A stretch of DNA of 64,000 bases, taken from assembly GCF_900110215.1 (NCBI RefSeq), contig NZ_FOCX01000004.1:124001-188000 (forward strand). Direction: 5' to 3'. The DNA comes from Halorientalis persicus (GTDB lineage Archaea > Halobacteriota > Halobacteria > Halobacteriales > Haloarculaceae). The notes under the pieces are model-generated. The model was given only the letters and a program-made list of their open reading frames with translations. It did no database searches and was not told the origin of the DNA. Position numbers and translations under genes: made by a program. Shown here piece by piece: positions 9,786 through 18,916 of the stretch (the stretch's first letter is position 1; each line of letters opens with the position of its first letter).

Positions 9786-10520
9786 GTGCAGGTCGCACTG
9801 GTCACGGTCGGAGACGAGTTGCTCGCGGGGGATACGGTGAACACGAACGCCGCGTGGCTGGCCGAGCGCCTCGCCGAGCGTGGGGTGTCGGTGCGGCGCG
9901 TGCTGGTCGTGCCCGACGAGCGCACGGAGATCGCCGAACGCGTGCGGGCCTACAGTGAGGCCTACGACGCCGTCCTCGTCACCGGCGGACTCGGGGGGAC
10001 GCCCGACGACGTGACGATGGCGGCCGTGGCCGACGCCTTCGACAGCGACCTCGCCGTCGACGAGTTGGCGCTGGCCGACGTGGAAGAGACCCTCGAAGCC
10101 ATCGCCGGCGACTATCCCGACCTCGAAGTCGACGCGAGAGCCGAGGCGACGATTCCCGCGGGGAGTCGCCCCCTCATCAATCGCGGTGGACTGGCTCCCG
10201 GGTGTGTGATCGAGAACGTCTACGTCCTCCCGGGCATCCCCGACGAGATGAAGACGATGTTCGAGGACATCGAAGACGAGTTCGAGGGGGATTCGGTCTC
10301 GGAGTTCCTCTACACGGAGAAACCGGAGGCCAACCTCGTGGACGCGCTGACCGACGCGGGCGCGCAGTTCGACGTGACCGTCGGCTGTTACCCGGACCGG
10401 GACGCGGGGCACAATCGCCTGAAAGTGACCGGTGACGATCCCGACCAGGTCGACGCCGCGACGGCGTGGCTGGCCGCGGAAGTGGACGCGGGCGAGGAAC
10501 CCCGCGACGAGGACGACTAA
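9786..10520 (+). CDS. CinA-like molybdopterin-binding (MoCF) domain protein
   Basis: A 244-residue protein with a GTG start. The N-terminal MoeA/MogA-like domain has VTVGDELLAGDTVNTNAAWLA, VLVTGGLGGTPDDVT and YVLPGIPDEMK, the CinA N-terminal signature. It lacks the deamidase domain of full-length CinA, as is usual for archaeal members. The family includes NMN-deamidase and ADP-ribose pyrophosphatase activities, but the single-domain archaeal role is unsettled. It is convergent with, and overlaps by 4 bp, the GTP cyclohydrolase III gene. Confidence 0.85.
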   Translation: MQVALVTVGDELLAGDTVNTNAAWLAERLAERGVSVRRVLVVPDERTEIAERVRAYSEAYDAVLVTGGLGGTPDDVTMAAVADAFDSDLAVDELALADVEETLEAIAGDYPDLEVDARAEATIPAGSRPLINRGGLAPGCVIENVYVLPGIPDEMKTMFEDIEDEFEGDSVSEFLYTEKPEANLVDALTDAGAQFDVTVGCYPDRDAGHNRLKVTGDDPDQVDAATAWLAAEVDAGEEPRDEDD

Positions 10521-11305
10521 TCGTCGTCGGCGACGACCGCTGGCCGCTCGGCGAATTCGACTGCCGTCCCGTCTTCGCGGCACTCCTCCAGGGCGTGTTT
10601 CGCGCCCATCCCAGCCGCCTGGGCGACGCCCGACTGCCCGACGCCGACCTTGAGGTCCACGTCGACGGCCTCGTTGACGTGGTCGATGGCGTCGCGGTAG
10701 TCAGCCGCGTCGAGGTCGGCACAGACTGCGATGACGTTGTCGCCACCGACGAAAAAGGACAGCGAGTCGTGGGCCTGGCGCATATACCGCATCAACTCGG
10801 CGTAGCCCTGCTCGATCCGGATGAACGTGTCGAACTCGTTGAGTTCGTCCGTGTACTTGCCTGTCGCGTCGTTCACGTCGAAGTGGGCGATCTGCACGTC
10901 CTCGTCCGTCCGATCTTCGTCGGCCAGCGTCTCACCGCGGAGGATCTCGCGGCGGGTCTCGTCCTGTGCGCTCCCGGCGTCCTGGAGGCGGTCGGAGGCC
11001 CGGCCCAGCGCGGCGACCGGCGAGGCGTCCACCGCGACGCTCACGCTCGCGGTGACCGGATAGCGGTTGCCGATGGACTCCTGGACCAGTGCGAGGTCCT
11101 CGACGTCTAACCCGTTGGTCACGGCGACCATGTTGTCGAATCGGCCGAAGAAGGCGTACCCCTGGCGGTTGCCGACGAGTTGTGACACGTCGGCGTACAG
11201 CCGCGACTGCATCGTCTGGAGGTCGACCTCACGGCGCGGCGTCGGCGTGACTGTCCAGGGCCCGTAGTTGTCGATCTGGATCAGCGTAACCTGCGTGTTT
11301 GTCAC
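10517..11305 (-). CDS. arfA: GTP cyclohydrolase III (ArfA)
   Basis: A 262-residue archaeal GTP cyclohydrolase IIa/III. It has MTNTQVTLIQIDNYGPWTVTP with GTG start, the duplicated GGDEF-like fold (VGNRQGYAFFGRFDNMVAVTNG; FFVGGDNVIAVCADLD) and C-terminal GVGQSGVAQAAGMGAKHALEEC. It converts GTP to a formylaminopyrimidine phosphate for riboflavin and deazaflavin (F420) synthesis. It lies 136 bp from, and co-oriented with, a gene group containing a PTPS-like enzyme, so a link to pterin-type chemistry is worth considering. The separation and the repeat at 11382 argue for a separate transcript. Confidence 0.93.
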   Translation of the reverse strand: MTNTQVTLIQIDNYGPWTVTPTPRREVDLQTMQSRLYADVSQLVGNRQGYAFFGRFDNMVAVTNGLDVEDLALVQESIGNRYPVTASVSVAVDASPVAALGRASDRLQDAGSAQDETRREILRGETLADEDRTDEDVQIAHFDVNDATGKYTDELNEFDTFIRIEQGYAELMRYMRQAHDSLSFFVGGDNVIAVCADLDAADYRDAIDHVNEAVDVDLKVGVGQSGVAQAAGMGAKHALEECREDGTAVEFAERPAVVADDD

Positions 11306-11381
11306 GACACCTGTCGTACGGGGTAGAGTAGTATTGTTCTTTGGAAGCCGGACGGACGACCGAAGGGAGTCCGTCGAACAC

Positions 11382-11408
11382 GCGAGCGGTGACGACGGAG
11401 CCGCGAGC
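11382..11408 (+). repeat. Left copy of an exact 27-bp inverted repeat
   Basis: This copy begins GCGAGCGGTGACG and ends GAGCCGCGAGC. The exact reverse complement is at 13889-13915. The pair brackets the methyltransferase, glycosyltransferase and PTPS-like genes. Both copies lie in non-coding DNA at the gene-group boundaries. Confidence 0.75.
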
Positions 11409-11441
11409 AGGGAGGCTCGACCGAGGTGTCCCCGCCCCGCC

Positions 11442-12362
11442 TCACTCTTCGCCCGTCCACTGGCCGAGCAGATCCAGCTGGTGGGTCACGTAGACGAGTT
11501 CACCGTTTGCGACCTGCTCGCGGCGTGTCCGGAGCCAGTCGTCGAGGCTGTCGTCGTCCAGCTTCGCGCCGCGGTCGCCCTCCCCGAGTGCGCCCTCGAT
11601 GGTGTCCAGGATGTACCGCAGGAAGTACGCCTCGTCGTCCGGGTACCCGTTCTCGTCCGGGTAGACGACCCAGTCCGACCCCGCGACGCCAGCGACCGTC
11701 GCGCCGTGCAGGTCCCGGAGTCGCGCCAGCGCGTGGTGGCCCGCGCGGCTGTCGCCCCCCGGTTTCGTGTCCATGTGGCCGTGGTACGCGCGCTCGACGG
11801 CGTCGTCGGCCGGGTGGTCCGGTGTGAACCGCGTCCCGCCGTCGATGGTGATCGGGAAGTACCAGTAGCCGCCGGACGCGAGCCCCGACAGGAGTGTCGG
11901 CAGCGTCTCCAGGCCCATCACGTCGAGGACGGCCAGGCCGACCAGCAGATCCCACGACTGGTCGGTGTCGGCGACGAAGGCCTCGGCATCGGCGGTGACG
12001 GGCCGGACGGCGACGGTGCGCTCCGGCCAGACGAGGTCGATTCCGTCGTCGCGTTCGCTGGCCTCGACCGGTCGGTCGGCCGCCCAGTCCGCGAGGCGGC
12101 CGGGGATCGCCGCGGTGTTGTCGGGCTCCTGATCGACGGCGGTGTAGACCACGTCCCGGTCCCCGGGGAAGAGATCCCACTCGACGGCGCGTTCGATCAT
12201 CGTCCCGATTCCGGCACCGACCTCCAGCACGCGGAACGGTCCCTCGTCGTCGGCCGCCGTCGCCAGGTTCATCCGGAGCTGTCGCCAGAGCCGGCGGTCC
12301 AGACTCCGGTCGTCGACGGACCGCTTGGCGTCGAGGTACCGCTGGAAGTCGTCGGCCGTCAT
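11442..12362 (-). CDS. SAM-dependent methyltransferase
   Basis: A 306-residue class I methyltransferase. Motif I is VLEVGAGIGTMIERAV (about residues 44-59), VVYTAVDQEP provides the acidic residue at the end of beta-2, and LLVGLAVLDVMGL fills the motif IV area. A C-terminal extension (DWVVYPDENGYPDDEAYFLRYIL) may shape the acceptor site. The substrate is unknown. Its ATG overlaps the stop of the glycosyltransferase gene in ATGA, so it is translationally coupled to it. It would act as a tailoring step in the cluster that also holds the PTPS-like enzyme and the dehydrogenase. Confidence 0.82.
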   Translation of the reverse strand: MTADDFQRYLDAKRSVDDRSLDRRLWRQLRMNLATAADDEGPFRVLEVGAGIGTMIERAVEWDLFPGDRDVVYTAVDQEPDNTAAIPGRLADWAADRPVEASERDDGIDLVWPERTVAVRPVTADAEAFVADTDQSWDLLVGLAVLDVMGLETLPTLLSGLASGGYWYFPITIDGGTRFTPDHPADDAVERAYHGHMDTKPGGDSRAGHHALARLRDLHGATVAGVAGSDWVVYPDENGYPDDEAYFLRYILDTIEGALGEGDRGAKLDDDSLDDWLRTRREQVANGELVYVTHQLDLLGQWTGEE

Positions 12363-13429
12363 GCGGCGACCCCTCCGCCGCCGGCCACTCCCTGCAGGAA
12401 CTCCCGGACTCGCGCGGTCGTCTCGGACCAGCCGGGGTGGGCCTCGTATCGTTCGCGCGCCGCCTGCCCCATCCGCGCGAGGCGGTCGCGGTCACGGGCG
12501 AGCGCGCCCAGCACTCGCCCCACACCCTCTGGGTCGTCTGGCTCGACCAGCGCTCCCGTCTCACCTGGGGTCACGAAGTCCCGTGCCCCGCCTGCGGCCG
12601 ACGCGACTGCCGGCAGGCCGAAGCTCATCCCCTCCAGATAGGCGATGCCGAACCCCTCGTGTCGCGCGGGGATCGCCAGGACGTGACTCCCTCGGAGCAC
12701 GGTCGCGAGCTCGTCGTCCGCGAGCCGCCCGCGGAGGTCGATGCGGCCGCCGGCACCGCTGCGAGCGATCGCGTTCTCGACCGTCCGGACGTACGAGGGG
12801 TTCTCCGCCCGCCCGACGACCGTCAACTCCCAGGGTTCGTCGACCTCGGCAAGCCCGTCGACGAGCGTGTCCAGCCCCTTCCGGGGCTCGATATTGCCGA
12901 CGAAGGCAACTCTCAGTGCCCCCTCGTGGGCCCGAGATTCGATGGTCGCGGTGCCGATGTCCGGATCGAAGCGGTCGCCGGCGGGCGGGGCGACGACCGT
13001 TCGACCCTTCGGCGGCCCGCCGGTCTCGGTCACGGTGCTCCGGGTCGCGGTGCTGTTACAGACGGCGGCGTCGACGCCGCCGAGATAGCGGCGCTCGACG
13101 GCCCGGTAGAGGCCGGCGAGGTGGCGGCCTTCGCTGGCTCGCAGGTGGTGGACGACGCTGACCACGGGGTAGGGCAGGTCGCGGTTCGCCCGGACGAGCG
13201 ACGGGTGGGCGAGTTCGTCCTGGAGCATCACGTCCACGTCGACGGCGAGTCGGTCGCGCAGGGACGACGAGAGGTTGTCGAGCAGGCCACGGGCGTACCG
13301 GCGGCGCGGGAGTTCGATCACGTCGACGGTGTCGCCGGCGTCGCGGAGCGCCTCGACGAGTCGGCGGTCGTACCGGAACCCGCCCGACTGGTCGTCGAGA
13401 CTCCCGTACAGCGTCAGGCCGACGCGCAT
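12359..13429 (-). CDS. Glycosyltransferase family 4
   Basis: A 356-residue GT-B glycosyltransferase. The C-terminal nucleotide-sugar domain has VAFVGNIEPRKGLDTLVDGL, ELTVVGRAENP and the EX7E motif EGFGIAYLE near residue 287. The N-terminal acceptor domain starts MRVGLTLYGSLDDQSGGFRYD. No transmembrane helix is evident, so it should work on the cytoplasmic face. It overlaps the PTPS-like gene by 16 bp and the methyltransferase gene by 4 bp, so the three form one operon. The sugar and acceptor are unknown. Confidence 0.9.
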   Translation of the reverse strand: MRVGLTLYGSLDDQSGGFRYDRRLVEALRDAGDTVDVIELPRRRYARGLLDNLSSSLRDRLAVDVDVMLQDELAHPSLVRANRDLPYPVVSVVHHLRASEGRHLAGLYRAVERRYLGGVDAAVCNSTATRSTVTETGGPPKGRTVVAPPAGDRFDPDIGTATIESRAHEGALRVAFVGNIEPRKGLDTLVDGLAEVDEPWELTVVGRAENPSYVRTVENAIARSGAGGRIDLRGRLADDELATVLRGSHVLAIPARHEGFGIAYLEGMSFGLPAVASAAGGARDFVTPGETGALVEPDDPEGVGRVLGALARDRDRLARMGQAARERYEAHPGWSETTARVREFLQGVAGGGGVAA

Positions 13430-13806
13430 GGGACGGATGCCTCGTACGCCGCGTGTGCCTGGTCGTCTTCCCAGATCGTCACGGTCAGTTCGGTCACCGT
13501 GTCGTCGGTCACCTTCTCGGTCACCCGCTCCCAGACCGCCCGGGCGAACCGCTCGACGCTGGGGTTATGTCCCTCGAACTCCGGCAGGTCGTTCAGCATC
13601 GCGTCGGCGTAGCGACTCTGGAGTCCATCCAGCGCCGCTTCCACGTCGTCGATGTCGACGAGGTAGTCGAACTCGTTCAGTTCCGGTCCCCTGAACGTGA
13701 GTTCGACCTCGTAGCGGTGGGAGTGTGGCTCCCCCTCGGGGCCCGCGTTCGGTACAGTGAGAAAGTGCTGTGCGATAAACGACTCCAGCACCGTGACTGT
13801 GTACAT
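13414..13806 (-). CDS. PTPS/QueD-like (6-pyruvoyltetrahydropterin synthase fold) protein without the catalytic Cys
   Basis: A 130-residue T-fold protein. The zinc-binding histidines are retained: H14 in ESFIAQHF and the HSH pair in EGEPHSHRYEVEL. A VDIDDVEAAL segment and a NPSVERFA motif equivalent to the pterin-anchoring P-T-x-E are also present. The CxxxHGH cysteine of PTPS and QueD is missing (the segment reads VPNAGPEGEPHSH), so canonical chemistry is unlikely. The ATG at 13806 is preferred; a GTG at 13830 would add eight residues. It is the first gene of the operon with the glycosyltransferase and methyltransferase. Confidence 0.85.
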   Translation of the reverse strand: MYTVTVLESFIAQHFLTVPNAGPEGEPHSHRYEVELTFRGPELNEFDYLVDIDDVEAALDGLQSRYADAMLNDLPEFEGHNPSVERFARAVWERVTEKVTDDTVTELTVTIWEDDQAHAAYEASVPCASA

Positions 13807-13888
13807 ACCAGTTCCTGTGCCCGTCGCCACCTAAGTCTCCCGCCGCTGGTGTAAGGCCTCGCGGCTCGGTCCGCTCGCGCATCCGTCG

Positions 13889-13915
13889 GCTCGCGGCTCC
13901 GTCGTCACCGCTCGC
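13889..13915 (-). repeat. Right copy of the exact 27-bp inverted repeat
   Basis: This is the exact reverse complement of 11382-11408 and lies in the 145-bp gap between the PTPS-like gene and the MDR dehydrogenase. The gap is otherwise low-complexity (CGCTCG repeats). With its partner it frames a three-gene block of about 2.5 kb. Confidence 0.75.
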
Positions 13916-13951
13916 TCGTCCGGAGATACTCGCTCCGCTCGCATCTCCCGG

Positions 13952-14956
13952 TCACTGATACGTCAACACGACACCCAACGCGCGCTCGGGCGCGTCGTCG
14001 AGCAGTTCGTAGGCGTCTTCGGCCCGCTCGACGGGGAACTCGTGGCTGAACAGCGCCGACACGTCGAGTTCGGCCAGGAGGTCACGGACCAGCGAGAGCC
14101 GGCGTTCCTTGTCCCAGCGGCCGCTGTGGTCCGGATCGATGCGGCTGACCTGACTGCTCTGGACCCGGACGTGACTCCGGTGGAACTCCCCGCCGAGGTG
14201 CAGCGTCGCCGGCTTGTCGCCGTACCACGAGCCGACGATCACCTGCCCGGCGTAGCCAGTCGCGTCGATGGCGTCGTCGAGCGCGTCCGGGTTGCCCGAG
14301 AGCTCGAAAGTCAGGTCCGCGCCGTCGACGTGGTCGCTCGCCACCGCATCGCCGAGCGCGCCGGCGTCGGCCACGGCCGCGTCCGCGCCGAGTCGCTCCG
14401 AGAGTTCTCGCCGCCGCTCGTAGGGGTCGACGGTCACCAGTTCACCCAGCGGGAACTCCGCGAGGACGGCGGTCGTCAGCAGGCCGACGATTCCCTGGCC
14501 GAAGACGGCGACCCGGTCACCGACGCGTGGCCGGCCGTCCATCACGAAGTTGACGGCGGCCTCGGCGTTGGCCAACAGCGTCGCCCGCTCGGCGGGCTGG
14601 TCGACCGGGATCAGTTCCGAGGGCGTCGCGAGGAAGTGACTCTCGTGGGGATGGAACGCAAACACGCGGCGGCCTTCCCAGTCGGCGTCGACGTTCGCGC
14701 CGGTCGCGGTCACGCGGCCGACGGCCGCGTAGCCGTACTGGAGTGGGTACGAGAGGGTCCCGTCCAGCGCGTCGATGGTCTCGTCGATCTCGACGCCGGC
14801 CGGCGCTTCGTCCCGGTAGAGCAACAGTTCGGTCCCGGGGCTGATGGCCGAGCGTTCCGTCCGAACGCGCACCTGGTCGGGTCCGGGGTCCGGGACCGGG
14901 CGTTCGCGAACCGTCACTTCACGCGGTCCGGTGAAGTAGAGCGAGCGTGCAGCCAC
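13952..14956 (-). CDS. MDR-family dehydrogenase lacking zinc ligands (BchC-like)
   Basis: A 334-residue medium-chain dehydrogenase. It has a GroES-like N-terminal domain and a Rossmann domain with AVFGQGIVGLLTTAVL (about residues 150-165) and LVTVDPYERRRELSERLGAD. The usual catalytic-zinc residues are absent: the first Cys position reads AISPGTEL and the GHE position reads LQYGYAAVG. It thus resembles the BchC/zinc-free branch. The start is GTG at 14956, six bases after the stop of a 26-codon ORF. It probably oxidises a sugar or polyol intermediate in the neighbouring PTPS/glycosyltransferase pathway; this is inference. Confidence 0.85.
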   Translation of the reverse strand: MAARSLYFTGPREVTVRERPVPDPGPDQVRVRTERSAISPGTELLLYRDEAPAGVEIDETIDALDGTLSYPLQYGYAAVGRVTATGANVDADWEGRRVFAFHPHESHFLATPSELIPVDQPAERATLLANAEAAVNFVMDGRPRVGDRVAVFGQGIVGLLTTAVLAEFPLGELVTVDPYERRRELSERLGADAAVADAGALGDAVASDHVDGADLTFELSGNPDALDDAIDATGYAGQVIVGSWYGDKPATLHLGGEFHRSHVRVQSSQVSRIDPDHSGRWDKERRLSLVRDLLAELDVSALFSHEFPVERAEDAYELLDDAPERALGVVLTYQ

Positions 14957-14962
14957 GGTCGA

Positions 14963-15043
14963 TCACGCCCGGGTTCGGCGTCGGTCGTCGCTGATCCGAT
15001 TTGCGATCTCGGTCCGAAACGTCGACGCGGGCTGAATCGCCAT
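14963..15043 (-). CDS. Possible 26-residue leader or small protein ahead of the dehydrogenase
   Basis: An ATG at 15043 opens a 26-codon frame (MAIQPASTFRTEI... ending RRRTRA) that stops 6 bp before the dehydrogenase GTG. A good TATA-like box (GTTTTATCGG, 15064-15073) lies 21-30 bp upstream of this ATG. That is the leaderless distance for this ORF but too far for the dehydrogenase. It may be a genuine small basic protein or a leader that couples translation. The peptide has no recognisable motif. Confidence 0.4.
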   Translation of the reverse strand: MAIQPASTFRTEIANRISDDRRRTRA

Positions 15044-15063
15044 GGCATCGCCAAGGGCTGTAA

Positions 15064-15073
15064 CCGATAAAAC
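15064..15073 (-). promoter_or_regulatory. TATA-like box driving the dehydrogenase transcript
   Basis: Read on the minus strand this is GTTTTATCGG. It lies 21-30 bp upstream of the ATG at 15043 and about 110 bp upstream of the dehydrogenase GTG. Confidence 0.6.
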
Positions 15074-15132
15074 CTGTGTGTGGCGGAAATTCTCCACGAA
15101 TCCCTCGCTCGGCCGCCGGGTTCGGCTGTCGG

Positions 15133-15501
15133 TCACCCTTCGCGCCGGTACAGCACCACCAGCACCACGATGAAGGCGACCTGGACGGCCTTGTCCAGGT
15201 AGCCGATCGGCGAGAAGTCGGGTGCGTTGACCAGATACCAGGCGACGATCTGGACGGCGGTGAAGGGGACGCCGATGGCGTAGACCAGTCGCCGGCGGTA
15301 GTCGACCGCGACCAGCGCCGCGCCCGCGAAGAACCCGACGCCGGCCAGCAGGAAGCTGATCCCCACGGGCGAGGAGACGAACTGCACGCCGAGCCAGATG
15401 TGCAACACGCCGGTGATCGCCGCGAGGCCGAACGCGACCCAGTGGAGCGGCGACAGCGATGCCGTGTCGACCGTGCGTCCGCCCGCGGCTGTCTCTGTCA
15501 T
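15133..15501 (-). CDS. Small four-helix membrane protein, conserved in haloarchaea
   Basis: A 122-residue integral membrane protein with four hydrophobic helices: WVAFGLAAITGVLHIWLGVQ, GISFLLAGVGFFAGAALVAV, LVYAIGVPFTAVQIVAWYLV and AVQVAFIVVLVVLY. It belongs to a haloarchaeal hypothetical family I know only as uncharacterised. It is divergent from the Gfo-AKR fusion gene and shares its 83-bp promoter region. Whether it belongs to the biosynthetic cluster is unclear. Confidence 0.65.
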   Translation of the reverse strand: MTETAAGGRTVDTASLSPLHWVAFGLAAITGVLHIWLGVQFVSSPVGISFLLAGVGFFAGAALVAVDYRRRLVYAIGVPFTAVQIVAWYLVNAPDFSPIGYLDKAVQVAFIVVLVVLYRREG

Positions 15502-15553
15502 ATCCCTAGTGGGAACGCGAGTGGCTTCAATTTTGGCCGCCGATCCGGCCGTG

Positions 15554-15561
15554 AATTTATG
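15554..15561 (+). promoter_or_regulatory. TATA-like box of the Gfo-AKR fusion gene
   Basis: AATTTATG lies 24-31 bp before the GTG at 15585, so the transcript should be leaderless. This supports the GTG start. Confidence 0.65.
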
Positions 15562-15584
15562 CCGTTCAATCCCTGTATAGGTCT

Positions 15585-17558
15585 GTGAACTGCCTGTTCG
15601 TGGGTGCGGGGGCCGTCGCCGACCGGTACGCGGCCGGGCTCGCGGACGGCCCGCTCACCCTGGCGGGCGTCTGTGACACCGACGCCGACCGCGCCGAGGC
15701 GCTGGCCGCCAGCCACGAGGCCGCCGCGTACGTCGACATCGACGACGCACTCGCCGCCTGCGGAGCCCCGGTGGTCGTGAACCTCACGAGTCACGGCGCA
15801 CACGCGACCGTGACGCGGCGCGCGCTGGCCGCCGACCGCCACGTCTACAGCGAGAAACCCCTCGCGCTCGACGCCGACACCGCCACGGATCTGCTCGCGC
15901 TGGCCGCCGACCGCGACCGCGCGCTGGGCTGTGCGCCGGTCGCACCGCGATGCCCGGCCCAGCGACTCGCCGGCCGCGCCGTCGCCGACGGCCGACTCGG
16001 TCGGGTCGGGCTGGGCTACGCCTACGCGCACGTCGGGCGGGTCACCGAGTGGCACCAGAGTCCGGATGGCTTCCTGTCGGTCGGACCGCTGTACGACGGC
16101 GCGGTCTACCCGCTCACCGTGCTCGTCGCGCTCTTTGGCCCCGTCGAACGGGTCCGGGCCGCCGACGCGCTGGACGTGTGGCCGGCCCGCGAGGCCGCGA
16201 CTCCCGAGGCCCCGACCCACGTCGAGGCGACCCTGGAGTTCGCCTCGGGGCCGGTCGTCCGCCTGACGGCGAGTTTCTACGCGCCCCACCGGAGCCGGGA
16301 GTTCTACGGCGTCGAACTCCACGGCGACGACGGCTCCCTGCGGCTCCGGGACGCCGGCACGCTCGACGCCGCGGTCGATTCGGTCTCGTTCGGCCGCCAG
16401 GGCCGGGAGTACACCCCCATGCCGGCCCAACAGCCGACCCGCGCCGGCACCTACCTCGACGGCGTCGAACGGCTCGCGGCCGCCGTGGCCGACGGGCGAC
16501 GACCCCGTGCGACCGCCCGCCGCGGCGCACACGTCGTCGCGATCTGTGATGCCGTCGAACGCGTCGCGGCGGGGGCCGATCCTGCCCCGGTCCCCGACTT
16601 CGGCACGGCGGCGGATCGACCGGCGAAACCGTCCGTTCGTCCGCGCCAGGACGGCCCCCGCTCGCCGTTCGAGGACGACCGCTCGCTCCGCCTCCCGCCC
16701 ATCGGCTTCGGCTGTTCGCGCTACCGCGGCGACGAGTACGTGGGTCGGGTCGAGTCCATCGCGACGGCGCTGGACGCCGGCTACCGGTTGCTCGACACCG
16801 CCGAACTGTACGGCAACGAACACCGGATCGGCGACCTGCTGGCCGCGCCCGGGACGCCCGACCGGGATTCCCTGTTTCTGTTCGGGAAGGTCTGGAACAC
16901 GAACCACGGCCACGTCGCAGAGGCGTGTGCCGGGAGCCGCGCGGAACTCGGGATCGAGACCTTCGACTGCTACGCGTTGCACTGGCCCGACTCGTGGGCG
17001 TATCAGGGGCCGCTTGAACGACTCGCCGAGAAACCGGTCCCCGAGCAGGAAGCCATCGCCTTCCCCGAGGACGAGACGGGGGAGATCGAGACGGTGGAGC
17101 TGTCGCTCGCCGACTCCTGGGCCAATCTGGAGACGGTCCACGACCGGGGCTGGGCGCGGACGCTCGGGCTCTGTAACGTCACCCGCGAGCAAGTCGAGGC
17201 CGTCCTGGAGGCTGGCTCGGTGAAACCCGCGGTCGTGCAGGTCGAGCGCCATCCCTACCAGCCCCGGACGGAACTCGTGGAGTTCTGCCACGAACGGGGC
17301 ATCCGCGTGATCGCTCACTCGCCGCTGTCGGCTCCCGGCCTCCTCGACGAACCGGTCCTCGACGAGATCGCGGCCGACCGGGGGCTCTCGCCCGCCGCGG
17401 TCGTCATCGCGTGGAACGTGACCGAGGGGGTCGTCCCGATCCCGTCGAGCAACGACGAAGCCCACGTCGTCGCCAACCTCGCGGCGGCGGGGGAGCGACT
17501 GGACCCAGAGGCGCGGGCCCGGATCGCGACGCTCGAAGATCCGGAGTTCTCACGATGA
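15585..17558 (+). CDS. Fusion of Gfo/Idh/MocA oxidoreductase and aldo/keto reductase
   Basis: A 657-residue two-domain enzyme with a GTG start. Residues 1-~330 are a Gfo/Idh/MocA domain: Rossmann CLFVGAGAVADRYAAGL, the sugar-binding SEKPLALD motif and a C-terminal sheet domain. Residues ~365-657 are an aldo/keto reductase with the whole catalytic tetrad: Asp and Tyr in LLDTAELYGNEHRIG, Lys in LFLFGKVWN, and His in CYALHWPDSW. VVPIPSSN marks the NADPH site. Such a fusion could perform two successive redox steps on one sugar or cyclitol. It overlaps the phosphatidyltransferase gene by ATGA, tying it to lipid-headgroup chemistry. Confidence 0.92.
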   Translation: MNCLFVGAGAVADRYAAGLADGPLTLAGVCDTDADRAEALAASHEAAAYVDIDDALAACGAPVVVNLTSHGAHATVTRRALAADRHVYSEKPLALDADTATDLLALAADRDRALGCAPVAPRCPAQRLAGRAVADGRLGRVGLGYAYAHVGRVTEWHQSPDGFLSVGPLYDGAVYPLTVLVALFGPVERVRAADALDVWPAREAATPEAPTHVEATLEFASGPVVRLTASFYAPHRSREFYGVELHGDDGSLRLRDAGTLDAAVDSVSFGRQGREYTPMPAQQPTRAGTYLDGVERLAAAVADGRRPRATARRGAHVVAICDAVERVAAGADPAPVPDFGTAADRPAKPSVRPRQDGPRSPFEDDRSLRLPPIGFGCSRYRGDEYVGRVESIATALDAGYRLLDTAELYGNEHRIGDLLAAPGTPDRDSLFLFGKVWNTNHGHVAEACAGSRAELGIETFDCYALHWPDSWAYQGPLERLAEKPVPEQEAIAFPEDETGEIETVELSLADSWANLETVHDRGWARTLGLCNVTREQVEAVLEAGSVKPAVVQVERHPYQPRTELVEFCHERGIRVIAHSPLSAPGLLDEPVLDEIAADRGLSPAAVVIAWNVTEGVVPIPSSNDEAHVVANLAAAGERLDPEARARIATLEDPEFSR

Positions 17559-18319
17559 GCGGGACCGAACGCGCACGTCTCACTCGGCGACGGCGGCGGT
17601 GGCTGTTCCTCGGGTCTGGGACCGTGCTGGTGCCGACGGCCGGCGCGGCCGCGCTCGCACGGCTGGTCGATCCGGCCGGGGCGGCCGCCTGGGCGCTCGT
17701 CGTGATCCCCATCGTCGGCTTCGAGGCCTGGTTCTACCACTCCCGGCGTGATCGGGTGTCGACCGCGGGGCCGGCCCTGCGGGTCGCCGACGCCGTCACG
17801 CTAGTCCGGGGGTGGCTCTACGCCGCCGTCGCCGGCTTCGCCGTCCTGTCGCCGACGGCGCTGGTCGCCTGGCTCCCGGGGCTCTGTTACGGCACCGGTG
17901 TCGCTCTCGACTGGCTCGACGGCCGGATCGCCCGCCGGACGAGCGGGGGGACGCGGCTGGGCGAACGGCTCGACATGGCGTTCGACACGCTGGGCTTTCT
18001 CGTCGCCCCGGTCGTCGCCGTCGTCTGGGGACGGCTCCCGGTCTGGTACCTGTCGCTGTCGGCGGCCCGGTACCTGTTCAAGGCCGGGCGAGGGCTCCGG
18101 CGCGTTCGCGGCCAGCCGGTCCACGAGTTACCCCCCAGCGAGCGCCGCCGGCAACTGTCGGGGCTGCAGATGGTGTTCGTCACCGTCGCGCTGGTCCCGC
18201 TCGTTCCGGCTGGCCCACTCGCGGTTCTCGCCGCCGTGGTGCTGGCCCCGTCGCTGGCGCTGTTCGCCCGGGACTACCTGGTCGTGGCCGGCTACCTGTC
18301 GCAGGCGGCGGAACAGTGA
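17555..18319 (+). CDS. CDP-alcohol phosphatidyltransferase
   Basis: A 254-residue membrane enzyme. The complete family signature D-G-x2-A-R-x8-G-x3-D-x3-D is present at DGRIAR...GERLDMAFD (about residues 124-146). Several hydrophobic helices flank it (LFLGSGTVLVPTAGAAALA, AWALVVIPIVGFEAWFY, LVPLVPAGPLAVLAAVVLAPSLALF). It should transfer a CDP-activated lipid to an alcohol, or a CDP-polyol to a lipid, in the membrane. The ATG overlaps the stop of the Gfo-AKR gene, so that enzyme may make the alcohol acceptor. The headgroup is unknown. Confidence 0.92.
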   Translation: MSGTERARLTRRRRRWLFLGSGTVLVPTAGAAALARLVDPAGAAAWALVVIPIVGFEAWFYHSRRDRVSTAGPALRVADAVTLVRGWLYAAVAGFAVLSPTALVAWLPGLCYGTGVALDWLDGRIARRTSGGTRLGERLDMAFDTLGFLVAPVVAVVWGRLPVWYLSLSAARYLFKAGRGLRRVRGQPVHELPPSERRRQLSGLQMVFVTVALVPLVPAGPLAVLAAVVLAPSLALFARDYLVVAGYLSQAAEQ

Positions 18320-18358: not shown

Positions 18359-18916
18359 ATGATGGCACCGACACACGTCGTGGTCGGACTCGCGCTCGGG
18401 GCTGCCGTCGCGACTGTCGAGCCGTCGCTGGGGACCGCCGCCGCGATCGGTGGCGCAATCGGCGGTGCCGCGCCCGACGTGGACCTGTTCGTCGGCCAGC
18501 ACCGTCGGACGCTGCACGCGCCCGCGCTCCTGTTCGTCCCCGCGGCGCTGGCCGCCGGCCTCGCGCTGGCCGCACCGACGCCGCTCGCGGTCGCGGTCGC
18601 GGTCGCGTTCCTCGCGGCGGCCGTCCACTCCGCCAGCGACGCCCTGGGGGCCGGCGAGGAACTGCGCCCCTGGGAGCGGACCAACCCGAACGCCGTCTAC
18701 TGCCACGCCGCCGGCCGGTGGTTGCGCGCTCGGTACGTCGTCCCCTACGACGGCGCACCGCGTGACTTCCTGGTCACGGCCGCGTTCGCGGTGCCGGTCG
18801 TCCTCGTCTTTTCCGGGCCGATCCGCTGGCTGACGCTGGCGCTCGTCGCCGGTGCCGGCGTCTACACCGCCCTGCGCAAGCGGCTCCCGAAGTACTTCGA
18901 GCCCATCGTCGAGTGA
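18359..18916 (+). CDS. YdjM-like membrane-bound metal-dependent hydrolase family protein
   Basis: A 185-residue multi-pass protein of the DUF457/YdjM group. It has an N-terminal MMAPTHVVVGLALG with the conserved His, GGAAPDVDLFVGQHRRTLHAPALL carrying the PDxD and H-R-x-xH motifs, and further helices (LLFVPAALAAGLALA, FLVTAAFAVPVVLVFSG). Members are called metal-dependent hydrolases on the strength of these residues, but the reaction is poorly defined. It follows the phosphatidyltransferase by 39 bp on the same strand and may be the last gene of that operon. Confidence 0.82.
   Translation: MMAPTHVVVGLALGAAVATVEPSLGTAAAIGGAIGGAAPDVDLFVGQHRRTLHAPALLFVPAALAAGLALAAPTPLAVAVAVAFLAAAVHSASDALGAGEELRPWERTNPNAVYCHAAGRWLRARYVVPYDGAPRDFLVTAAFAVPVVLVFSGPIRWLTLALVAGAGVYTALRKRLPKYFEPIVE

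Follow-up and report, generated by a model that had tools for sequence, protein, structure and literature searches.

Among the described systems closest to the locus considered here is the neighbourhood of the PTPS-IV proteins (COG0720, cluster-node 62, 561 sequences), around which the AGeNNT paper placed genes for GTP cyclohydrolase II (GCH II, called FolE2 there) and RibD_C (PMC5445326, 2017); the neighbourhood was presented there without a product. The window, i.e., the whole 64,000-nucleotide stretch of Halorientalis persicus contig NZ_FOCX01000004.1 that was analysed, encodes a PTPS-like T-fold protein clustered with an MDR dehydrogenase, a GT4 glycosyltransferase, a methyltransferase, a CDP-alcohol phosphatidyltransferase, and GTP cyclohydrolase III (GCH III). 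This cluster almost certainly represents a genuine pathway common to archaea and bacteria; hundreds of bacteria carry it, as do roughly half of the haloarchaeal genomes sampled. The comparison provides a probable starting metabolite and orthologues across the two domains, and narrows the long-open function of PTPS-IV to a few checks in tractable organisms.

A sequence-only reading of the window had proposed the cluster as an undescribed pathway. No paper joining the full gene set or naming its product was found in the literature searched, to which subscription journals are mostly external, and to that extent the proposal stands; the bacterial GCH II and RibD_C neighbourhood, on the other hand, had already been noted in 2017 (PMC5445326).

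Conservation of the gene set

Sixty diverse haloarchaeal loci were compared, where a gene within 6 kb of the PTPS gene was counted as a companion. The MDR gene accompanies PTPS in 52 loci, the methyltransferase in 49, GT4 in 44, the CDP-alcohol phosphatidyltransferase in 38, DUF7475 in 33 (a raw count, with no genome background rate set against it), and GCH III in 23, where it lies upstream of MDR in 16 loci and after the methyltransferase in 5. As a negative control, the S49 peptidase, CinA, cupin, and helicase genes from the flanks of the window are near PTPS in only 1–2 of the 60 loci, and unbiased clustering of all open reading frames in these loci returned no other widespread companion. 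GCH III, earlier described as lying next door, does adjoin the cluster, but is a member of the set rather than a mere neighbour. Conversely, two genes first counted with the set are not supported as core parts, and are accessory or unrelated: the Gfo-AKR fusion, present in 14 of the 60 loci and confined to some lineages, is a lineage-restricted accessory, and the YdjM-like membrane hydrolase is found in only 2–4 loci.

Of the 243 genomes examined from the order, 135 have a PTPS homologue. With two weak matches dropped, 129 genomes have both PTPS and MDR, 4 (two of which are incomplete) have only PTPS, none has only MDR, and 110 have neither; the genomes are related, and these counts are not independent events. 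In several genomes (G112, G234, and G235) PTPS and MDR are far apart, and both are retained. On the Haloarcula marismortui plasmid pNG700 (L098; G201:C7:104280-104665), the PTPS frame is broken, with two tblastn pieces and internal stops, and the cluster may be decaying in this copy.

In bacteria, tblastn against plasmids shows the MDR and PTPS genes as neighbours in Thiodictyon, Methylosinus, Rhizobium, a rhodobacterium, and Streptomyces, and at least 589 confirmed stretches were recovered when genome contigs were scanned with an alignment of bacterial PTPS proteins. The 86 bacterial loci analysed, some of which end at contig edges, are from Proteobacteria, Actinomycetota, Acidobacteria, and Gemmatimonadales and Nannocystaceae metagenome-assembled genomes. 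All of them contain MDR, followed by GT4 (82), the methyltransferase (81), the CDP-alcohol phosphatidyltransferase (72), RibD_C (55), RibA/GCH II (45), and a creatininase-family protein (39). The Thiodictyon MDR has the cluster MDR as its sole match in 12 of 12 haloarchaeal genomes (E <= 1e-8), and the best match of the Streptomyces CDP-alcohol phosphatidyltransferase is the cluster copy in 10 of the 11 haloarchaeal genomes that gave any match. The GT4 of the window is 30% identical to that of the Rhizobium cluster (E 3.5e-29), and its methyltransferase is weakly homologous to the one encoded in the bacterial cluster (E 3e-7). Four bacterial loci (L093, L096, L118, and L172) have a cytochrome b561 where haloarchaea have DUF7475.

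Outside the Halobacteria, one archaeon (G274) has the order methyltransferase, GCH II, MDR, PTPS, GT4, creatininase, and another (G304) GCH II, MDR, PTPS, GT4. Three further loci of an archaeal family (L222, L223 at 10566-10943, and L224) have an MDR-PTPS pair; two show no further cluster gene nearby, and L224 has GT4 and the CDP-alcohol phosphatidyltransferase. The association of PTPS genes with those for a zinc-type dehydrogenase, GT4, and a CDP-alcohol transferase in other prokaryotes, to which the sequence-only reading had pointed, is seen both in the plasmid matches and in the 86 bacterial loci, and the homologues, which that reading allowed might turn out scattered, are co-located in Halobacteria, other archaea, and several bacterial phyla. 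A chance grouping is ruled out by the companions in the 60 loci with their control, the co-occurrence across 243 genomes, the bacterial loci, and the orthology of MDR.

The PTPS-like protein

The AlphaFold model of the PTPS-like protein has a T-fold (pLDDT 94.7), and its closest solved structure is SCO6650 (PDB code 3D7J; TM 0.86). Active-site residues were tallied in 40 sequences (30 haloarchaeal, 5 other archaeal, and 5 bacterial). The pterin-anchoring Glu113 is kept in all 40, and the zinc ligands His14, His28, and His30 are present in all archaeal members, the third being alanine in the bacterial ones. The position of the catalytic cysteine is occupied by glutamate in 30 of 30 haloarchaeal and 5 of 5 other archaeal sequences, and by alanine in 5 of 5 bacterial sequences. 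The Asp-His dyad is not retained; the corresponding columns, whose exact choice depends on the alignment, mostly hold Arg-Asp in haloarchaeal and Asn-Tyr in bacterial sequences, with a few scattered matches. Owing to the loss of the triad, the protein is unlikely to cleave a side chain in the manner of PTPS or QueD, and it is likely to bind, or to perform ring chemistry on, a 2-amino-4-oxo ring.

The proteins are routinely annotated in database records as 6-carboxytetrahydropterin synthase, an assignment that the active site does not bear out. The window protein scores 45 bits against the QueD NCBIfam model (cut-off 89), and an identity with QueD in queuosine or archaeosine synthesis was rejected since the CxxxHGH cysteine and the Asp-His dyad are missing and separate QueD paralogues exist in the same genomes. 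The ExxHGH motif of PTPS-III does not match either, as the glutamate precedes the histidine by four rather than three positions and HSH replaces HGH. As for PTPS-IV, its FGPAQ signature is invariant in the bacterial alignment, while the window has AGPEGEPHSH instead. This is the haloarchaeal form of the motif; the bacterial form is FGPAQRLHGA, and that of non-halobacterial archaea, including the three loci with the MDR-PTPS pair noted above, FGPETRLHGH, which at the level of the motif links the two others. In a PTPS tree, which includes one outgroup row (Q_L002) in a wrong frame that forms a meaningless long branch, the archaeal and bacterial cluster proteins each form one clade, joined apart from the QueD-type paralogues (UFBoot 98, SH-aLRT 45). 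This gives moderate support for a common grouping of the archaeal and bacterial PTPS-like proteins. A further alignment (A2), with one misread outgroup row, entered neither the structure models nor the residue tallies.

The entry step

The GCH III of the window is well above family cut-offs (PF05165, E 1e-86, 290 versus 21 bits; NF002587, 409 versus 306 bits). Haloarchaeal clusters contain GCH III, whereas bacterial clusters and two from non-halobacterial archaea (L221 and L225) contain GCH II in its stead; a search of the two archaeal genomes did not find GCH III in either. The GCH II of L221 (8016-9209), directly upstream of MDR, carries a long C-terminal extension. The PTPS-IV surroundings differ accordingly: GCH II and RibD_C in bacterial loci, GCH II in the two archaeal loci, and GCH III in the window, with ArfC encoded elsewhere. 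This non-orthologous replacement of enzymes with the same reaction type implies a GTP-derived aminopyrimidine as entry compound, and is the strongest substrate clue; the pathway very probably starts from such a compound.

Each of the 10 bacterial genomes examined whose cluster encodes RibA has one or more extra RibA copies elsewhere, so the copy in the cluster is dedicated. Among the 45 bacterial loci with RibA, 30 have Met, His, or Cys at the position equivalent to Tyr105 of Escherichia coli RibA, and every one of these 30 contains a creatininase; with tyrosine in this position, a creatininase is present in only 5 of 15 loci (nominal Fisher p 9e-7, which overstates the independence of these mostly actinobacterial loci). 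Spoonamore and Bandarian reportedly found that Streptomyces coelicolor SCO6655, with methionine at the Tyr105 site, halts at the formylated ribosylaminopyrimidine phosphate FAPy. FAPy is also the product of GCH III. A similar halt in the clusters would account for the additional hydrolase. The best PDB matches of the cluster RibD_C protein are 2,5-diamino-6-ribosylamino-pyrimidinone phosphate reductases (ArfC-type), although it is below the ArfC cut-off TIGR01508 (108 versus 186 bits). Haloarchaeal ArfC is encoded outside the cluster, which would account for archaeal clusters doing without creatininase and RibD_C.

GCH III is present in 233 of the 243 genomes, mostly as a single copy. The genome of the window has a second one (G000:C61:39011-39730), and members of the genus without the cluster likewise have a second GCH III.

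Gene layout and the other enzymes

The open reading frames, strands, and overlaps of the sequence-only reading were reproduced (Table 1), and its families are backed by Pfam, save for the methyltransferase, which has no Pfam match and is assigned by its class I SAM (S-adenosylmethionine) fold instead. Overlaps of the ATGA type join GT4 to the methyltransferase (12359-12362) and Gfo-AKR to the CDP-alcohol phosphatidyltransferase (17555-17558), and PTPS and GT4 overlap by 16 bp (13414-13429). The methyltransferase is separated from GCH III by 136 bp. For the PTPS-like protein, the ATG start is preferred on conservation, with a GTG at 13830 as a possible alternative. The DUF7475 gene, which had first been passed over, lies upstream on the same strand as MDR. 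In two sister genomes (L033, 7416-8315, and L034, 11556-12455), the interval between DUF7475 and MDR holds a gene resembling the AlkP/sulfatase superfamily (weak PF00884), which looks dispensable given its loss in the window strain.

Table 1. Features of the cluster in the Halorientalis persicus window
Feature	Coordinates	Strand	Basis
Whole cluster	10517-18319	both	
GTP cyclohydrolase III (ArfA-type), candidate entry enzyme	10517-11305	minus	PF05165, NF002587
SAM-dependent methyltransferase, own family	11442-12362	minus	class I fold, no Pfam match
GT4 glycosyltransferase, E-x7-E motif	12359-13429	minus	PF00534, 7e-29
PTPS-like T-fold protein	13414-13806	minus	PF01242, 93.5 bits
MDR dehydrogenase, BchC-like	13952-14956	minus	Pfam and NCBIfam profiles, residue motifs
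Deletion site, clean, ~940 bp, AlkP/sulfatase-superfamily-like gene gone	15091-15131	.	blastn, window versus L033
DUF7475 small membrane protein, frequent companion	15133-15501	minus	PF24287
Gfo/Idh/MocA-aldo/keto reductase (AKR) fusion, accessory	15585-17558	plus	PF01408, PF00248
CDP-alcohol phosphatidyltransferase	17555-18319	plus	PF01066
YdjM-like membrane protein	18359-18916	plus	

The catalytic motifs of GT4, the CDP-alcohol phosphatidyltransferase, the AKR tetrad, the Gfo GxGxxA and EKP elements, and the SAM-binding loop of the methyltransferase are unbroken. In MDR, the usual catalytic zinc ligands are apparently absent (SAISPGTE/YGYAAVG). The methyltransferase model (pLDDT 95.4) has class I methyltransferases as best PDB folds. 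The CDP-alcohol phosphatidyltransferase has the complete DxxDGxxAR(x8)GxxxDxxxD motif (DWLDGRIARRTSGGTRLGERLDMAFD), is below the archaetidylinositol phosphate synthase cut-off NF040950 (21.9 versus 180 bits), and is, of the core genes, the one least consistently present (38 of 60 haloarchaeal and 72 of 86 bacterial loci).

Proposed pathway and alternatives

In the first step, which the gene replacement supports, GCH III in haloarchaea would open GTP to FAPy, and bacteria and some other archaea would use GCH II to reach FAPy or its deformylated form. Deformylation could then be carried out by the creatininase-family hydrolase in clusters whose GCH II no longer has the active-site tyrosine, and by housekeeping ArfB in haloarchaea, followed by reduction of the ribosyl to a ribityl group by an ArfC/RibD_C reductase, encoded in the cluster in bacteria and elsewhere in archaea. 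In a fourth step, the PTPS-like protein would hold the 2-amino-4-oxo ring through the conserved glutamate while MDR acts on the polyol chain, giving a pteridine or related ring without true PTPS/QueD side-chain cleavage. Judging from their families, GT4 and the methyltransferase would glycosylate and methylate the compound, and the CDP-alcohol phosphatidyltransferase would join the conjugate to an archaetidyl or phosphatidyl group, with a membrane-anchored, glycosylated, methylated pterin-like compound as end product. We regard the chances that the product is both pterin-like and lipid-linked as about even; if so, the compound would define a new class of redox or light-absorbing molecules in membranes. 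The novel glycolipid or pterin-like conjugate suggested by the sequence-only reading is in this respect reasonable as a predicted product of the gene set.

The fourth step can be put in concrete terms, where MDR would oxidise C2' to a ketone and so arrive at the 1-deoxypentulose intermediate also formed by GTP cyclohydrolase I (GCH I), and the 5-amino group would close the ring to dihydroneopterin phosphate. Two redox steps, reduction and re-oxidation, would thereby replace the Amadori rearrangement through which GCH I reaches this intermediate. A complete GCH I-independent pteridine route of this kind, with ribityl reduction, C2' re-oxidation by MDR, ring closure on a triad-less T-fold, and a pterin that is then glycosylated, methylated, and attached to lipid, seems unlikely at present, but would give a new class of cofactor- or pigment-lipid common to archaea and bacteria. 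As a lead rather than as evidence, unusual charged or glycosylated pterins (phosphohalopterin, solfapterin) were reportedly described decades ago in haloarchaea and Sulfolobus; we know of no genes for them.

Several observations weigh against the lipid-linked pterin pathway. GT4 is undetected beside PTPS in about one quarter of the haloarchaeal loci. The bacterial PTPS members are without the third zinc histidine; the PTPS chemistry may differ between the domains, or the protein may only bind its ligand. The PTPS sister grouping involves long branches and uneven support. The RibA-creatininase association derives largely from related actinobacteria, and the cluster creatininase is far below the ArfB cut-off NF033501 (37, 20, and 41 versus 180 bits) and closer to MftE than to ArfB. 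Finally, many haloarchaea have no GCH III besides the one in the cluster, and arfA is required for riboflavin in Haloferax volcanii (PMC8305020), which means that GCH III may sit in the cluster for other reasons. The arfA gene of Haloferax volcanii is HVO_1284; a PTPS gene probably lies close by, which makes this species a candidate carrier of the cluster.

As a tentative alternative, which we consider possible, though not probable, the product could be a soluble pterin or diaminopyrimidine, glycosylated and methylated in a manner similar to cyanopterin. The CDP-alcohol phosphatidyltransferase would then act on another alcohol or in a separate lipid step, in keeping with its being the least constant core gene. 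GCH, the PTPS fold, GT4, and the methyltransferase would suffice for such a product, and glycosylated pterins are known from the cyanopterin papers on cyanobacteria, but the presence of the CDP-alcohol phosphatidyltransferase in 84% of the bacterial loci, and its orthology across domains, suggest membership in the set.

Quite improbable is an inositol or polyol glycolipid, for which the CDP-alcohol phosphatidyltransferase would be a polyol-phosphate synthase and GT4 an MshA/PimA-like enzyme, with MDR and Gfo-AKR shaping the polyol and the PTPS-like protein as a redox or binding accessory. The weak best matches point this way (archaetidylinositol-phosphate synthase and PIPS for the CDP-alcohol phosphatidyltransferase, MshA for GT4, inositol/inosose dehydrogenases for Gfo and MDR), all far below cut-offs, but this reading does not explain why these clusters also contain GTP cyclohydrolase, RibD_C, and creatininase, and Gfo-AKR is missing from most loci.

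A role in coenzyme F420 biosynthesis is very improbable. GCH III and ArfC also supply F420, and an unpublished role of PTPS-IV in F420 synthesis is mentioned in PMC5041015, but CofH is above its cut-off in none of 11 proteobacterial cluster genomes, on which grounds an F420 role in bacteria was rejected. Furthermore, a strong CofH relative (E 1e-79 to 1e-98) was found in seven haloarchaea that do not carry the cluster; these relatives, like that of the window's genome, are below the curated cut-off. A chance neighbourhood around the riboflavin gene arfA could draw on the nearly universal and mostly single-copy GCH III, but MDR, PTPS, GT4, and the methyltransferase are kept without GCH III in most haloarchaeal loci and the set occurs in bacteria without GCH III, so that it is refuted by the bacterial loci, the PTPS/MDR co-occurrence, and the cross-domain orthology of MDR.

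Comparison with known systems

The PTPS-IV system shares several features with the cluster: the bacterial members of the cluster have the FGPAQ signature and the GCH II and RibD_C neighbours described for PTPS-IV (PMC5445326), and SCO6650, the closest structure to the window protein, is a PTPS-IV structure. The window protein differs in having GPEG...HSH where PTPS-IV has FGPAQ...HGA. Within its accessible parts, the 2017 account gives only GCH II and RibD_C; the set of MDR, GT4, methyltransferase, CDP-alcohol phosphatidyltransferase, and creatininase, the GCH III-containing form in archaea, and the link between the RibA tyrosine and creatininase are not part of it.

The ArfA-ArfB-ArfC route to riboflavin and F420 has the same first three reactions as proposed here (GCH III, deformylase, reductase), with GCH III in common. 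The cluster is without deaminase, lumazine, or Cof genes, and has instead the PTPS-like protein, MDR, GT4, methyltransferase, and CDP-alcohol phosphatidyltransferase. QueD (PTPS-I) and the PTPS of tetrahydrobiopterin synthesis (PTPS-II) share with the cluster protein the T-fold, the anchoring glutamate, and, in archaeal members, the three zinc histidines, but unlike them it does not have the catalytic cysteine and the Asp-His dyad, and QueD paralogues are encoded separately in the same genomes. Pterin glycosides of the cyanopterin type, as glycosylated and methylated pterins, belong to the same class of product as proposed here. They arise from GCH I products through other glycosyltransferases, and the cluster is distinguished from them by its CDP-alcohol transferase.

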